Positions 9,664 to 37,333 of a stretch of 39,608 nt of DNA are shown here, in pieces. The notes under the pieces are model-generated. The model saw only the letters and a list, made by a program, of their open reading frames with translations, had not been told where the DNA came from and did not search any database. Source of the DNA: Bacteroidaceae bacterium. Lineage in GTDB: Bacteria > Bacteroidota > Bacteroidia > Bacteroidales > Bacteroidaceae. Where the stretch lies: the NCBI GenBank assembly GCA_017534535.1, contig JAFXVZ010000026.1:1-39608 (forward strand). Reading direction: 5' to 3'. Position 1 is the stretch's first letter. Every line of letters starts with the position of its first letter. A program made the position numbers and the translations under genes.

Positions 9664-9710
9664 CTTTGCGTATCAGAGTCATGCACGTCCTCGAATGCAT
9701 TTATCTACAT

Positions 9711-9880
9711 TATGCTTTGCAGGTCTTCTGACTTATTCCATGTCTGTGGCCTTCCCACCCACTAAGGGCAGTGGCAAAGATTCACAGACACCATATGGAA
9801 ATCACAGCAGCGGGACTGCTCGGGATTTGCACCCGATTCCCTTTTCACCCTCCTCCTCGAATAGAAGAGTTGGAACAAAG
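9711..9880 (-). promoter_or_regulatory. Cobalamin (B12/AdoCbl) riboswitch
   Basis: On the minus strand the leader carries the class features in order: AAAAGGGAATCGGGTGCAAA with CCCGAGCAGTCCCGCTGCTG (about 9801-9847), a GCCACTG/CAGTGG-rich core, and the B12 box AAGTCAGAAGACCTGC (9720-9735). It lies 47 nt upstream of btuB, so cobalamin is expected to lower expression of the btuBGFC operon. Outer limits are estimated from the promoter on one side and the end of the B12 box on the other. Confidence 0.96.
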
Positions 9881-9886
9881 CGGGCA

Positions 9887-9894
9887 CAAAGATA
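9887..9894 (-). promoter_or_regulatory. Promoter -7 box for the riboswitch and btu operon
   Basis: TATCTTTG on the minus strand matches TAnnTTTG and lies just ahead of the riboswitch, placing the start of transcription near 9880. A good -33 box is not obvious. It is only 40 nt past the fbp stop codon. Confidence 0.65.
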
Positions 9895-9933
9895 CGCAAT
9901 ATTTTGCAATAAATAATGTAAAAATGTAATAAT

Positions 9934-30728: not shown

Positions 30729-33113
30729 TTAGCTAATCATGATTTTATCGGTTTTGACAAAGGAAGCACAAGAATGTCCGTTCACATTGACATCATCTGC
30801 TTTCTTCACTAATCCATCTTTAATCAACCTGTTTATTCGCATACGTGCAGCATTGATTAATTTGAGATCAAAGCAACGCATCACATCTTGATAAGTAAAT
30901 TCTTCAGGCAGTCGTTTGAAGCCATCCTTTGTTTTCTGATGATGCTGATGTTTCATGGAAGCCTCCTTCAACTTATTGTCGAAGTACATCTCCGCCATCG
31001 CGCCAAAATAATGCTTCTGACAAGCATACTGCATATTTACAAACAACTCCGCTAATTGCCAGTCTATATCATCCGTCTTGAACTCGCCACACCAGAACTC
31101 ACCATCCTGATGCAGTTCGTTCCAATGACGCATCACGATGAAGGGAGCTGAGAAGTTCAGGCCATGATAAGCACATCGCTTCAGGAGCATTTCATCGGCT
31201 TCCGAGTCATTCTCCTGGGCATCCGCCATTCGGCGGGCAGTCCAATCGTACAACTCCCTCACCAGCTTCCCGAAGGGCAGTTCCCCCTTCGTCCTGTCAA
31301 GCTTGAAAGCCCACTCTGTCAGTCGGTTGTCACTCTCATAGTCTATGGTACTTTCAAATTCTATCATCTCGAATCTGGTAGAAGGCAATGGAATACAGGT
31401 GAGGCGTGTGGCCAAGCCAGAGCCGAAATTGCTTTCATTCACTTTCTTCTTCAGGGCGATGGGCGTACCCGTGTAGATGAAATTCCATGTCACACGGAAC
31501 TTTTGCATCACACTGTCCACATTCGAGTATGCCTGACCGTCCTCTTCGTTGTGGAAGGCCTTCAATTCCATGCTCATCTTGTCAATCCACGAGCCACCCT
31601 TCTGAACACTCAGCGTATTGTCCAACTCAGTGTCGAAAGTCAGCATATGGAGTTGCATCTCAACGCCATCCACCGTCTCGGTGGCATTCACCATGTCCTG
31701 AATGAACTGGGCATTGGATGTTCGGGCTGGATGGATGCGTACAACCACCTTCGGTTTCTTGGGTTTCTCCTTGTTGGCGCCCTTGGTCCTCATCATTTCA
31801 CGATAGGCATTGATGGCATCTATGCCTATTTTGTCCGATGCGAACAGGGGAGCCATGAGCAAATTGTAAAGCCTGGTGGCGAACGACTTGCCTGATGCAG
31901 GGTCACCGATAATCATAGCCGAGCCATTGAGTCGCCTCAGTTCCTCAGGCCTGTGATAGAAACGATAGGTGCATCGGGTCATTAAGGTCATCAGCAGCAA
32001 GCCACCCACAACCAGTGCAGCAGGGTATTGGTTTTTCTTCAAACCCTTGCACACGTCTTTCAAGGCAGGAAAATGCTCGGACATTTTCTCAATTTGCTCA
32101 CCCCAGTACCACAACAACTCATTGATTTCATCGTCATCACGTTGACCGTTGACCGTTGACGGTTGATCGTTATTCGTGGCAATGTTGATGATTTCCTGCA
32201 TCTTCTTTGATATTCCCTTAGGTTGCTCTTTGCAAGCTGAATCCACAATGTTTAGCAACTCCTGCTCATCCAAGCCCAACCTTGGCATAATCTCCAGCAG
32301 CAATTGCCTGTTGTTGTCACAGATAGCCCGTAGGTTCACAGCCAAATTGTATAGCTTTACATTACGCTCACCCTCATGAGGAAGGCCACCGTTACGTTTC
32401 CACCATTCTTCAATGATGGTAGAGTAAGAAACACCTTTAAAGGAACGTTGGACGTTGACCGTTGACGGTTGACCGTTGACGGTCAATGGTAAATGGTCAA
32501 TAGTCGGGTTGCTATGGCCATTCCGATACTGACCATCATACTTCTTAGCAAACGCATCATTGTGATAGGTGAAGAGTTCCTTGTCCAAGTACAGAATATC
32601 TTCTTCCTTGCAGACGAAGCTCATGCGTGAAGCATCCTTGCAGCTCTCATCTACCTGCACCCCTAACAACTCAGCCATCTTGTGCTGATTGTCAATCAGG
32701 TTGCCCCAAAGCACATTAGCTTTGAACACAATCTTCAGGCCCTTGCCGGAAGGCGTTACATACACCAATAGAATACATGAACGTAAGTCATTGTCAATGG
32801 CCAGACGTCCATTGTCAATTTGAGCCCAAAGTTCTTTGGGCGAATCAACATGGTCGATGTCCATCACCACCAAGCCCGTCAGCCTTGTGGCTGATTGTTT
32901 CCTCCAAGCCCCCGAAACACCCTTCTTAGAGGTTGTCTCATCAAACATAGCTTGGAAGATAAAGGCAGGCAGTTTTCGTTTCAGTTTGGCATCGCCCGAC
33001 TGACGGAACTCGTCAATCAGGGCGTTGCTCTTTTTGTCTCTCACCAGCTGATAGAACACTTGTTCATCCACCGGCTGAGTCGGGTTAAAAAAATTCTTTT
33101 GGTAACTGAACAT
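30729..33113 (-). CDS. BT4734/VirE N-terminal primase-like plus DUF3987 helicase-like protein
   Basis: Large replication-type protein of mobile elements, 794 aa. Residues about 50-190 match the BT4734-like (VirE_N) domain with TGLVVMDIDHVD, a primase-like acidic motif. Residues about 340-690 form a DUF3987 P-loop domain with Walker A GDPASGKSF near residue 400. Three segments contain heptanucleotide-repeat peptides: IDNGRLAIDNDL (about 97-108), LTVNGQPSTVNVQ (about 207-219) and QPSTVNGQR (about 316-324). The repeats preserve the frame and sit in predicted linkers. The genes around it (Rha, M15) suggest phage or transposon ancestry. Function in replication is inferred from the family. Confidence 0.82.
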   Translation of the reverse strand: MFSYQKNFFNPTQPVDEQVFYQLVRDKKSNALIDEFRQSGDAKLKRKLPAFIFQAMFDETTSKKGVSGAWRKQSATRLTGLVVMDIDHVDSPKELWAQIDNGRLAIDNDLRSCILLVYVTPSGKGLKIVFKANVLWGNLIDNQHKMAELLGVQVDESCKDASRMSFVCKEEDILYLDKELFTYHNDAFAKKYDGQYRNGHSNPTIDHLPLTVNGQPSTVNVQRSFKGVSYSTIIEEWWKRNGGLPHEGERNVKLYNLAVNLRAICDNNRQLLLEIMPRLGLDEQELLNIVDSACKEQPKGISKKMQEIINIATNNDQPSTVNGQRDDDEINELLWYWGEQIEKMSEHFPALKDVCKGLKKNQYPAALVVGGLLLMTLMTRCTYRFYHRPEELRRLNGSAMIIGDPASGKSFATRLYNLLMAPLFASDKIGIDAINAYREMMRTKGANKEKPKKPKVVVRIHPARTSNAQFIQDMVNATETVDGVEMQLHMLTFDTELDNTLSVQKGGSWIDKMSMELKAFHNEEDGQAYSNVDSVMQKFRVTWNFIYTGTPIALKKKVNESNFGSGLATRLTCIPLPSTRFEMIEFESTIDYESDNRLTEWAFKLDRTKGELPFGKLVRELYDWTARRMADAQENDSEADEMLLKRCAYHGLNFSAPFIVMRHWNELHQDGEFWCGEFKTDDIDWQLAELFVNMQYACQKHYFGAMAEMYFDNKLKEASMKHQHHQKTKDGFKRLPEEFTYQDVMRCFDLKLINAARMRINRLIKDGLVKKADDVNVNGHSCASFVKTDKIMIS
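32141..32168. repeat. Heptanucleotide repeat GTTGACN, four units, inside the primase-like gene
   Basis: Units GTTGACC, GTTGACC, GTTGACG, GTTGATC; encodes QPSTVNGQR on the minus strand. Confidence 0.85.
32447..32505. repeat. Heptanucleotide tract that changes orientation, inside the primase-like gene
   Basis: Five GTTGACN-like units (32447-32481) are followed directly by three inverted units GTCAATG, GTAAATG, GTCAATA (32482-32502). The frame is kept and encodes TIDHLPLTVNGQPSTVNVQR. Confidence 0.85.
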
Positions 33114-34900: not shown

Positions 34901-35563
34901 TCACCTTCCCACCGCATTGACAATGAAGTCAGCCCCCTTGGGAGTCCAGACGAGATAGGTTTGTTCTTTTTTCTTTCCGCTCTTAGAGTAATAGATGAAG
35001 AGTCGGTTCTCTGCGAGTCCCCGACCCTCATACGCTGGTGTCAGGCGGAACTGACCACCACTCCTACGTTGAATCCCCTGGTCACACAGGAAAGAATTCA
35101 AGTCCCTTGCATCGATACCTATTTCCTTGGCAATCTGTGTCACGGTAAAACAGTCGTTGGAATCTTGGTTTCGGCAAGCCAGCTCAACACCCACGATGCG
35201 TTCTGCCTCGTCCATCACATCCGCGTCCGTTACCAGCAGATGGCGTACAGCCCCAGCTTGTATGCGTTCGCGCTCCAGCTGTTCCCAACGCAGCACCAGC
35301 CTTGCTCGTGCCTCGTCATTGAACTTGGTGGCGATATACAGGCACTCCGTCTTAGTCAGGTTGTAGCAAGGCACTTCCTTGTGTCCGCCGTTAGGCATTT
35401 CATAGATTCTCGATGAGAGGGAAAAATTTCCCCCTCGTACTTTCACCCATGCCTCCTCCATCTTGCGGATGGCCTTCAGCACATCATTGTGAGGTTTTCC
35501 TGTCACATCGGCAATCTCCAGAGAAGTCATCCGCTGGAGATTCGTCATCATCAAATTGTTCAT
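34901..35563 (-). CDS. Phage regulatory protein, Rha plus ANT (KilAC) domains
   Basis: Phage-type antirepressor or regulatory protein. From Met at 35563 (MNNLMMTNLQRMTSLEIADV) it is 220 aa. Residues about 10-95 match Rha (VTGKPHNDVLKAIRKMEE, YNLTKTECLYIATKFND). Residues about 130-215 match the ANT/KilAC domain (FTVTQIAKEIGIDARDLNSF, TPAYEGRGLAENRLF, TYLVWTPKGADFI). An in-frame ATG at 35587 would add MRRKKLLY but lies within a GTCGCA/TGCGAC hairpin (35581-35600), so the inner start is preferred. It is the first gene of the seven-gene operon running to 30180. Confidence 0.85.
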   Translation of the reverse strand: MNNLMMTNLQRMTSLEIADVTGKPHNDVLKAIRKMEEAWVKVRGGNFSLSSRIYEMPNGGHKEVPCYNLTKTECLYIATKFNDEARARLVLRWEQLERERIQAGAVRHLLVTDADVMDEAERIVGVELACRNQDSNDCFTVTQIAKEIGIDARDLNSFLCDQGIQRRSGGQFRLTPAYEGRGLAENRLFIYYSKSGKKKEQTYLVWTPKGADFIVNAVGR

Positions 35564-35580
35564 ATACAATAGTTTTTTGC

Positions 35581-35732
35581 GTCGCATCCCTTGGTGCGAC
35601 CTTTAGCGTTTTTAAGAATAGATTAAGATTAAATTATGGTACGCACGTACGCACATGTACATGCGTGTAAGCGTGTTTGTTTTCCACTGTAGCAATAAGT
35701 CATAGAGCACCGTCGCATTTCTCACTTGCGAC
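35581..35732. promoter_or_regulatory. Leader of the Rha operon with matching palindromes
   Basis: Two hairpins share the same arms: GTCGCA/TGCGAC at 35581-35600 and at 35712-35732. Between them lie CATGTACATG (35654-35663), a perfect 10-bp palindrome, and several CGTAC/GTACGC repeats. These look like operator sites, but no binding protein is identified. Confidence 0.45.
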
Positions 35733-36245: not shown

Positions 36246-36818
36246 TCATTCTTCTCCCACATTCACGTTTTCGTTGTTATTTACATCATACAGAGGTCCA
36301 TGTATTTGGGCATTATTCATGGTCAAATGATTGGCATGGATGGTGGTGTTTCTCTTCTCTTTCTTCTCCATCTCTTCATCCATATCATCCAACATATTGA
36401 ATTCTGCTTCGGTGGCAATGTGTCTCAAAAAGACGCCGAGCATTATCTTGACGGGCTTGTACTCTTCCTTGTTCATGTGTTTCAGACAATACTTCAAGAT
36501 CTCTTTGAGCGAGAAACGCACCACCTCTCCATCTTCGCCGAAATACGAGAGTTGTTTATTCAGATTCACAACCTGAGCTGTCATGTATTCTATCTCACGT
36601 TGTTGCCTTTTCGTCTTGCATTTCTCCAAGTCCAGGTCTATTTGCAGTTTCTCCTTGTCCAGATTCTGCTGGTCGATGACACTCTGCATATCAGCTATTG
36701 TCTTCTTGTCTTTTATTGCCTCTGCCCTGAGTCTTTTGTTTTCACTATTGATATTATCTTCAAAGAAATCCAGTTGGTCAATTAAATTCTTTCCTCGCTT
36801 CTGTTGATGTTTACCCAT
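36246..36818 (-). CDS. Hypothetical coiled-coil protein with C-terminal GP-D-N motif, 190 aa
   Basis: No family recognised. A basic N-terminus (MGKHQQKRGKN) precedes a long predicted coiled coil (about residues 20-95), with many K, E and Q heptads. A helical region follows (FSLKEILKYCLKHMNKEEY), then a C-terminal beta stretch ending NNAQIHGPLYDVNNNENVNV. That last motif matches the N-terminal motif of the next gene. It starts 85 nt after the 120-nt structured element at 36903-37022, which sits in its leader. The leader also has two GTTTACAA direct repeats (36839-36859). Confidence 0.65.
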   Translation of the reverse strand: MGKHQQKRGKNLIDQLDFFEDNINSENKRLRAEAIKDKKTIADMQSVIDQQNLDKEKLQIDLDLEKCKTKRQQREIEYMTAQVVNLNKQLSYFGEDGEVVRFSLKEILKYCLKHMNKEEYKPVKIMLGVFLRHIATEAEFNMLDDMDEEMEKKEKRNTTIHANHLTMNNAQIHGPLYDVNNNENVNVGEE

Positions 36819-36902
36819 GATATAATTCTAATTTTGATTGTTTACAACTTCGTTTACAATATGTGAATAGGAGAAACGTGAGGCATTGTTAGAAACAACA
36901 AT

Positions 36903-37022
36903 TCTCATCAGGACTACGACATCCCATCCTCTTGTTGTAACTGCCAATGCTCACGCCATAAAGTGACATGAGCTGACAGCCTTAACATTTCGAGGATTTC
37001 AAATTAGTCGTAGTTGATGAGA
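36903..37022 (-). ncRNA. Rod-like structured 120-nt element (candidate leader RNA)
   Basis: Nested complementary arms, listed as plus-strand positions: TCTCATCA 36903-36910 with 37015-37022; ACTACGAC 36913-36920 with 37007-37014; ATCCTC 36926-36931 with 36992-36997; TGTT 36933-36936 with 36984-36987; CTGCCA 36941-36946 with 36974-36979; GCTCACG 36949-36955 with 36967-36973. That is about 39 pairs with small internal loops and an 11-nt apical loop. A TAnnTTTG promoter at 37070-37100 would transcribe it on the minus strand. No known RNA class was recognised. Confidence 0.6.
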
Positions 37023-37069
37023 AAAACGAAAAGCCTTAGGCTCAGCTTTTAATAAATATGTCAAACGCA

Positions 37070-37100
37070 CAAAGATAAACATTGTTTACCTATGCACAAA
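37070..37100 (-). promoter_or_regulatory. Promoter upstream of the structured element
   Basis: Minus-strand TTTG (37097-37100), 19 nt, TATCTTTG (37070-37077). Transcription would start near 37063, 40 nt before the structured element. A small hairpin AGCC-TAA-GGCT followed by TTTTCGTTTTT (37024-37042) lies between and could attenuate transcription. Confidence 0.7.
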
Positions 37101-37147
37101 ATAATACTTTACTTCTATTTATCGGTACTACCTCCTTCTTTTAATGG

Positions 37148-37333
37148 TTACTCAATGTTGCAAAGATAAAGAATATGTTTCAAATTTGCAAATAAAGAAC
37201 TGATTTGTTCTATATAACGTGGATTGTGTAACTCATTTAGGGGATAATTAACCCACTGACCTTTGGCATATCTGCTAAAATCAGTGGGCTTACTCGTTCG
37301 ATTGTCAATCTTGAAAAGATGATGAATGCCCAA
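37148..37333 (-). pseudogene. 61-codon open frame after the WG-repeat gene stop
   Basis: It begins at a TTG (37331-37333) in the same frame as the WG-repeat gene, three codons after that gene's TAG stop, and encodes MGIHHLFKIDNRTSKPTDFS and so on to ILYLCNIE. Reading through the TAG would join the two into one ORF. No family recognised. A promoter (37161-37192) overlaps its end, which argues against a real gene. It may be the remnant of a longer protein. Confidence 0.3.
37161..37192 (-). promoter_or_regulatory. Second upstream promoter
   Basis: Minus-strand TTTG (37189-37192), 20 nt, TATCTTTG (37161-37168), about 90 nt upstream of the promoter at 37070-37100 and in tandem with it. Confidence 0.6.

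Follow-up and report, generated by a model that had tools for sequence, protein, structure and literature searches.

The 39,608-nt stretch of Bacteroidaceae DNA analyzed here (the window) contains a structured element of about 200 nt (36,866-37,066, minus strand), which may well be a promoter-attached leader RNA that acts as a transcription attenuator before genes unrelated to one another; this is the reading that we favor. Computation gave two folds of this RNA: a rod that joins its 5' and 3' halves (fold A) and a terminator-like rod of the 3' half (fold B). The leader belongs to a large family in Bacteroidales of gut, rumen and other habitats, apparently undescribed as judged through Rfam, in which motifs such as Bacteroides-2 and GUCCY-hairpin (PMC2864571) have no number.

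Results

The leader element in the window

The first-pass annotation had described a rod of about 39 pairs at 36,903-37,022, and this fold was borne out. The minus strand of the segment folded at -53.9 kcal/mol, compared with -27.6 kcal/mol (SD 3.2) for shuffled sequences (z -8.23), and its minimum free energy structure held 48 pairs as counted by eye, more than had been claimed. The plus strand folded at -38.4 kcal/mol (z -4.61), and on both strands none of 200 shuffles was as low. The hairpin is an RNA of the minus strand, i.e. of the strand of a 190-aa gene whose start codon (36,818, minus strand) is found about 85 nt past it, in agreement with the spacing first given. The limits proposed for the element enclosed only its core and were too narrow: a 5' hairpin (37,027-37,050) and a tail extending to about 36,866 were missed, and the second fold was likewise overlooked. 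The 190-aa gene begins about 47 nt beyond the 3' end of the ~200-nt element. On the other side, a Bacteroides-type promoter (37,070-37,100, minus strand) is made up of TTTG (37,097-37,100), 19 nt and TATCTTTG (37,070-37,077); this -7 box starts 48 nt from the edge of the hairpin, the distance at which a promoter had been predicted.

Fold A consists of P1, which closes both ends, P2, a small 5' hairpin, P3, a rod of three helices, and a conserved head, all on the minus strand. The 5' strand of P1, GTTTGACATAT (37,056-37,066), may pair with 36,852-36,862, imperfectly in the window, and P2 is the conserved hairpin AAAAGCTGAGCCTAAGGCTTTTCG. The strands of P3 are 37,015-37,022 with 36,903-36,910 (P3a), 37,007-37,014 with 36,913-36,920 (P3b, strands x and x') and 36,992-36,997 with 36,926-36,931 (P3c); the 5' strands of P3a and P3b served in the swap tests described below, and x' is placed between complementary segments g and g' (about GGGA and TCCT, by eye). 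The head hairpin, GGCTGTCAGCTCATG...GGCGTGAGCATTGGCAGT, occupies 36,940-36,981, and its 3' strand is common to folds A and B.

No RNA family had been recognized in the element from its sequence, and comparison with covariance models led to the same result: no Rfam family reached the gathering score over the element in the window, and an Rfam 15 scan of 14 related loci gave no match over it. At E ≤ 5, the sole match within 36,700-37,200 was NCRUPAR_2 (E 3.7), which is far under its gathering score and covers the start of the 190-aa gene, not the leader. Elsewhere in the window, Rfam identified a Cobalamin riboswitch (9,701-9,906, minus strand), and a short tandem repeat of the CATCACAACATCACA type is present near the contig end (39,511-39,545). 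The window also contains a hammerhead-like CUGAUGAG, which was set aside, being without conservation.

A family of leaders in one bacterial order

In a DNA search of 158 genomes of the genus, G100 alone contained a true relative (E 1.2e-25), and four other genomes had matches of 22-32 nt only. The window and G100 are almost the same in the 5' hairpin and the head; their lower stems are unrelated in sequence, yet complementary in each. The relative folded at -52.0 kcal/mol (z -8.74) in the sense and -38.9 kcal/mol (z -6.20) in the antisense orientation. With a covariance model of these two sequences (R1), a second copy was found in the genome that the window comes from (G000:C3, E 7.6e-5), its lower stem again different in sequence but complementary. 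A model of three sequences (R2) gave matches at E ≤ 0.5 in 21 of 399 genomes of the family and 8 of 30 genera, own genome included; nine of the 21 genomes had a match under E 0.001, and the inclusion of G072 and G492 depends on weak matches, L060 and L061, that were later dropped. Searching genome contigs for the head pattern yielded 50 loci, of which 44 were kept, mostly from Prevotella and Bacteroidaceae metagenome-assembled genomes, many of them from ruminants; isolates were also among them, e.g. Prevotella sp. P6B1 and the aberrant member Xylanibacter brevis ATCC 19188. At E ≤ 1, R2 gave 66 matches in the 74 sources given to it.

The third model (R3), of 66 sequences, matched at E ≤ 0.01 in 31 of 247 genomes of the order, own genome included, and in 28 of 173 genera, at up to six places per genome and twice in the genome of the window. 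The best match was read in 29 of the other 30 genomes, and the architecture was present by eye. R3 gave no match in 38 genomes of the phylum from outside the order, and its best E-value in 32 control loci (236,748 bases) was 1.2. In G694, three of the six copies (contigs C24, C44 and C65) are situated some 1.55 kb from the contig's first base, as if the assembly broke in a repeated neighbor.

Removal of chance loci and exact duplicates left 87 distinct members for analysis, distinct meaning different in core sequence, so that some are near-identical. Pattern matches without an R2 match at E ≤ 1 (L067, L070, L089, L094, L104, L105 and L115) and weak model matches (L037, L060 and L061) were dropped; L099 was retained despite being missed by R2, L057 was left in as a doubtful member, and the R2 match covers only part of the model in L065, L075, L076, L081 and L095. 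Three strict-pattern matches in the family, L011-L013, were rejected, as they have the look of coding sequence (the sequence of L013 was inspected) and are without the rest of the element; we take them to be FeoB coding sequence. DNA patterns of the element gave none or chance matches only in viral contigs, and the window region had no match at E ≤ 1e-5 among phage and plasmid records. A literature search, without supplements and most subscription journals, returned no paper that we recognized as describing the leader family.

The rod of fold A is kept by compensatory change

Arms were exchanged between members, and the lower rod was refolded. Among 26 divergent members, which included order-wide members and excluded L076, native arms folded at -38.4 kcal/mol and swapped arms at -18.4 kcal/mol, the native partner being best in 26 of 26. 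The first round, with L076 included, had given -37.0 against -19.4 kcal/mol, with the native partner best in 22 of 23. L076 was the only miss (-18.0 against a median swap of -19.6 kcal/mol) and, having an unpaired lower rod, was omitted from several of the tests. The arms of 26 of 86 members are less than 70% identical to each other, with compensatory change. The rod is kept by compensatory change, and pairing, whose loss in homologous loci the first-pass annotation had named as the result that would speak against its proposal, is clearly conserved. The head has the consensus GCUCAC...GUGRGCAUUGG, with conserved unpaired stretches around it, and 7 of its 15 predicted pairs changed on both sides with pairing kept, in an alignment fitted to a model containing the head.

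The control for P1 was weak. Some members have a long P1, with 18 bp in L093, and native strands gave -18.3 kcal/mol against -15.3 after swapping, with the native partner best in 2 of 22; under other limits the values were -14.9 and -11.6 kcal/mol, with the native partner best in 4 of 22. Within the rod, complementary g:g' segments flank a 3' strand of P3 in 80 of 87 members, where 34.5 were expected from shuffled arms (GGT/ACC in 38, AGG/CCT in 9, GGA/TCC in 7 and GGG/CCC in 7). Hairpins in the 3' arm of 22 divergent members gave a combined p of 0.0015, compared with 0.99 for the 5' arm. Since the members are related, the statistics for fold A and g:g' are optimistic. The near-identical RNAs L051 and L052 differ in the 3' strand of P3b; L052 keeps g:g' (GGGG/CCCC) and loses x:x' by eye.

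A second fold of the 3' half

Fold B in the window (36,866-36,957, minus strand, -32.4 kcal/mol) is a terminator-like rod of the 3' half. Its base helix is formed by the head 3' strand and the complementary 3' tail CAATGCCTCACG (36,877-36,888), GCGUGAGCAUUG pairing with CAAUGCCUCACG; a helix ACAACAA:UUGUUGU follows, for which TTGTTGTTTC (36,892-36,901) provides the partner of ACAACAA, and then the g:g' hairpin, with x' in its loop. The U-rich run TTTCTCCTATT (36,866-36,876) comes after the rod and is weak in the window copy.

In 22 members, the complementarity of the tail to the head 3' strand had a mean z of -2.77 against mononucleotide-shuffled tails. When the halves were folded alone in 37 members (the 22 divergent ones and 15 order-wide members picked by the analyst), the mean z was -3.09 for the 3' half, -1.26 for the 5' half and -0.76 for a downstream control, with p 1.6e-6 in a paired test of the two halves. 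In 47 of 51 members, the minimum free energy structure of the 3' half included a helix of at least 6 bp between head 3' strand and tail. The 8 nt after this helix contained 4.3 T on average, compared with 2.4 expected, and at least four T in only 31 of 47. A shorter 3' piece without head strand and tail gave no folding signal (mean z -0.27). Of 22 members, 12 formed 70% or more of the enforced fold B helix when the 3' part was folded by itself. Swapping the sides of fold B in 26 members changed the energy from -24.1 to -19.4 kcal/mol, the native value being under the swap median in 20 of 26; the native 3' side was the single best in only 6 of 26, and a previous version of the test had found it so in 3 of 22. 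The shuffle statistics for fold B are optimistic because the members are related.

The head 3' strand is needed by both folds. With B enforced as one helix (n = 22), the complete fold A had a mean advantage of 16.1 kcal/mol. By computation, the leader appears to have two mutually exclusive folds; B, too, appears to be conserved, and is less strongly backed than A.

Position, neighbors and other readings of the element

Of 83 members, 53 had TAnnTTTG within the 60 nt where it was expected upstream, compared with 4 of 83 for a control window; a TTTG-like -33 box spaced by 18-21 nt was present in only 25. A T-rich 8-mer followed the tail in 59 of 81 members (control, 16 of 81). By positions from a mechanical caller, which errs for the window itself, a same-strand ORF came first downstream in 65 of 77 members, at a median distance of 40 nt and within 150 nt in 57 of the 65. 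The element lies between a promoter and the first gene of a unit. In Prevotella-type members such as L074, L088 and L098, a ATGAGTCC(A/T)TAA-like stretch is conserved some 50 nt ahead of the -7 box, perhaps as the edge of the element or an operator. Of the three functions that had been proposed from the sequence, regulation of the operon by the RNA agrees best with the data, as the element is promoter-attached, on the strand of the gene, conserved as RNA and followed by a same-strand ORF in most members; the other two, an RNA partner of the encoded proteins and a single-strand DNA hairpin, were weakened by the findings given below.

We considered the possibility that the element is a stand-alone RNA of about 200 nt, running from promoter to U-rich run and acting in trans or bound to protein, with the downstream gene as a neighbor reached by partial read-through. 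Its own promoter, T-rich 3' end and very strong fold would agree with this, as would the pairing of its ends in P1 in several members, including the 18 bp of L093. We nevertheless hold it to be rather unlikely, given how regularly a same-strand ORF follows at short distance, often presumably too near for a promoter of its own. The downstream gene is moreover without conservation, so no partner protein is evident, and an RNA that partners the encoded proteins is disfavored because these are mostly unrelated between members.

The window leader precedes a 190-aa coiled-coil-like protein (P0001, 36,246-36,818), a 148-aa protein (P0002, 35,816-36,262), a Rha/KilAC-type antirepressor (34,901-35,587) and, further on, the BT4734-like_N protein of the island (30,729-33,113), all on the minus strand. 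The C-terminal part of P0002 is by eye like the first-gene products of other members. Relatives of P0001 were found in 2 of 398 other genomes of the family, and in G402 a leader is directly upstream of the better of these two distant relatives. Searches of viral contigs with P0001 and P0002, and of genome contigs with P0001, yielded no relatives, and the 269-aa protein of G100 matched 0 of 198 relatives. P0001 and P0002 share a short beta-like motif (IHGPLYDVNNNENV and VNGPMFDIHDNQHV), with similar ones in other first-gene products, e.g. NNFNAPVGQHIDHVDTINF; it recalls, by analogy, bacterial amyloid-signaling motifs.

The downstream proteins of 64 members (in each, the longest ORF on the same strand whose start was no more than 450 nt away) belonged to 33 Pfam families, the commonest being DUF6261 (6), Peptidase_S24 (3) and HU-HIG (3); the consistent gene function expected behind a riboswitch was not seen among them. 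Genes that look by eye lipoprotein-like or surface-protein-like follow the leader in many of the order-wide members. In 8 of 87 members (L063, L066, L078, L083, L107, L108, L112 and L114), the leader is followed by a small ORF with GRPPP or SRPPP, where PPP could be a ribosome-stalling motif. Rfam identified DUF805 RNAs in L134 (1719-1784 and 2683-2751, plus strand) and L136 (1388-1456, minus strand); both members have one between leader and gene, and L134 also has one before the next gene. An element of the same architecture could act on translation or RNA stability, or bind a ligand as a riboswitch, and the conserved unpaired stretches around the head and the short distance from leader to ORF are what such an element might display. 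This is distinctly improbable in our view, as the downstream genes share no pathway and the tail is complementary to the head strand.

Upstream of the copy in G000:C3 (L039, 7926-15987) are a methylase-like gene, an ORF6N-like protein (by eye), McrB and McrC, and downstream of it a coiled-coil-like protein and, further on, a large BT4734-like relative (by eye); Pfam confirms only McrC among the genes named. This copy appears to sit in a defense-like island, and the leader of G100 follows an HsdR-like gene. Upstream neighbors were scanned for 34 of the 72 listed, giving 46 Pfam families, and the 25 families listed include type I restriction, HSDR_N, NgoBV, C5 methylase, McrBC and AbiH; PADLOC gave restriction and methylase models. 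The presence of defense genes upstream, seen without a background rate, is a lead only. The upstream ORF shares the strand of the leader in 57 of 73 members, and the element could for this reason be the terminator of the upstream gene only, or an insulator before the island, as a rod followed by a U-rich run and the "mobile attenuators" thought in PMC2965389 to derive from IS ends might suggest. With a promoter -7 box just before the rod in 53 of 83 members and a 5' half conserved by pairing, we give this very little weight.

Of 87 members, 84 had a rod that folded lower in the sense than in the antisense orientation, and for the 3' half this was so in 83 of 86, which speaks for RNA. A DNA-level hairpin serving recombination or replication of a mobile element would suit the island-like settings, some of them beside restriction systems, but is scarcely credible given this strand preference, a mean of 5.9 G-U pairs, the free divergence of the arms, the lack of an integrase among the 25 of 33 downstream Pfam families listed and the occurrence of a transposase-type nuclease (PDDEXK_2) in no more than one of 64 downstream proteins. 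Retron-like msr/msd was set aside, no reverse transcriptase being seen among the neighbors, as were a type III toxin-antitoxin and a bridge-RNA-like guide. An integron attC-like hairpin was also rejected: variable ends and a conserved head are the reverse of attC.

Discussion

We regard the leaders as a new family within a known class of device. In the antisense-controlled attenuators of plasmids pT181 and pIP501 and in trp-type attenuators, the leader has two exclusive folds, one of which is a terminator, and a 5' segment pre-empts a strand of the terminator. The leader family is similar in having two exclusive folds, one terminator-like, and a 5' segment that would pre-empt a strand of it. 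It differs in its proposed antiterminator, a rod in which the entire 5' half is paired with the 3' half, and in standing before unrelated genes; homology to known attenuators was compared through Rfam only. The immunity RNAs P4 CI and P1 c4 act through termination. Like them, the leader is a small structured RNA heading a mobile-element operon; c4 (RF01695) had no match in the window or in the 14 loci scanned and, unlike the leader family, is listed for Proteobacteria and phages. The DUF805 RNA (RF03081), a cis-regulatory RNA of related bacteria, is a separate motif of 68 nt that does not overlap the leader.

The "mobile attenuators" of PMC2965389 are described there as related, highly conserved, terminator-bearing sequences before unrelated genes in enterobacteria and bacilli, ascribed to IS elements; the strings Bacteroid- and Prevotella occur nowhere in its main text. 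By comparison with that description, the leader family is divergent and has a promoter and compensatory change, and the high sequence conservation of recent IS spread was not observed, as seen from the arm identities above. HMP_4078, described in PMC8040213 as a palindromic candidate of 109 bp from Bacteroidetes near D5_N and an integrase, is by this description like the leader family in size, taxon and mobile setting, and could be a partial description of it. The RNA map of B. thetaiotaomicron (PMC7366714) reports many long leaders and small RNAs, none of which could be matched to the leader family from what that text gives.

How might such a leader work as an attenuator? Both folds, the position, the strand, the promoter and the U-rich run were found by computation, and we infer from here on termination by fold B, its trigger, the responding genes and the transcript ends. 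Transcription would start a few nucleotides after TATCTTTG. Fold A would be the antiterminator, its 5' half pairing with the 3' half and keeping the head 3' strand from the tail. Were the 5' half unavailable, the head 3' strand would pair with the tail and the 3' half would fold on itself into rod B, which with the U-rich run would form the terminator state. Read-through would be the default, given an advantage of about 16 kcal/mol for the complete fold A over B, and an antisense RNA, a protein or a ligand that engages the 5' half may cause termination. No trigger suggests itself, since the genes behind the leader share no function. If the leader is an attenuator, its large, well-defined two-state fold opens the trigger to direct testing.

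An extension of this mechanism, which we regard as a long shot, would make the leader a spreading promoter-plus-switch module with the variable P3 stem as an identity code: the RNA of one element, by pairing in trans with the leader of a similar element, would terminate it and so confer RNA-based immunity or incompatibility on islands of Bacteroidales that carry defense genes, the module being later recruited to surface genes.

Leaders of this family occur in 28 of the 173 sampled genera of one order and are without an Rfam match where scanned. They could serve as a gene-control part in Bacteroides. If the attenuator reading is true, they would represent a common switch for mobile islands and surface genes in the Bacteroidales of gut and rumen.
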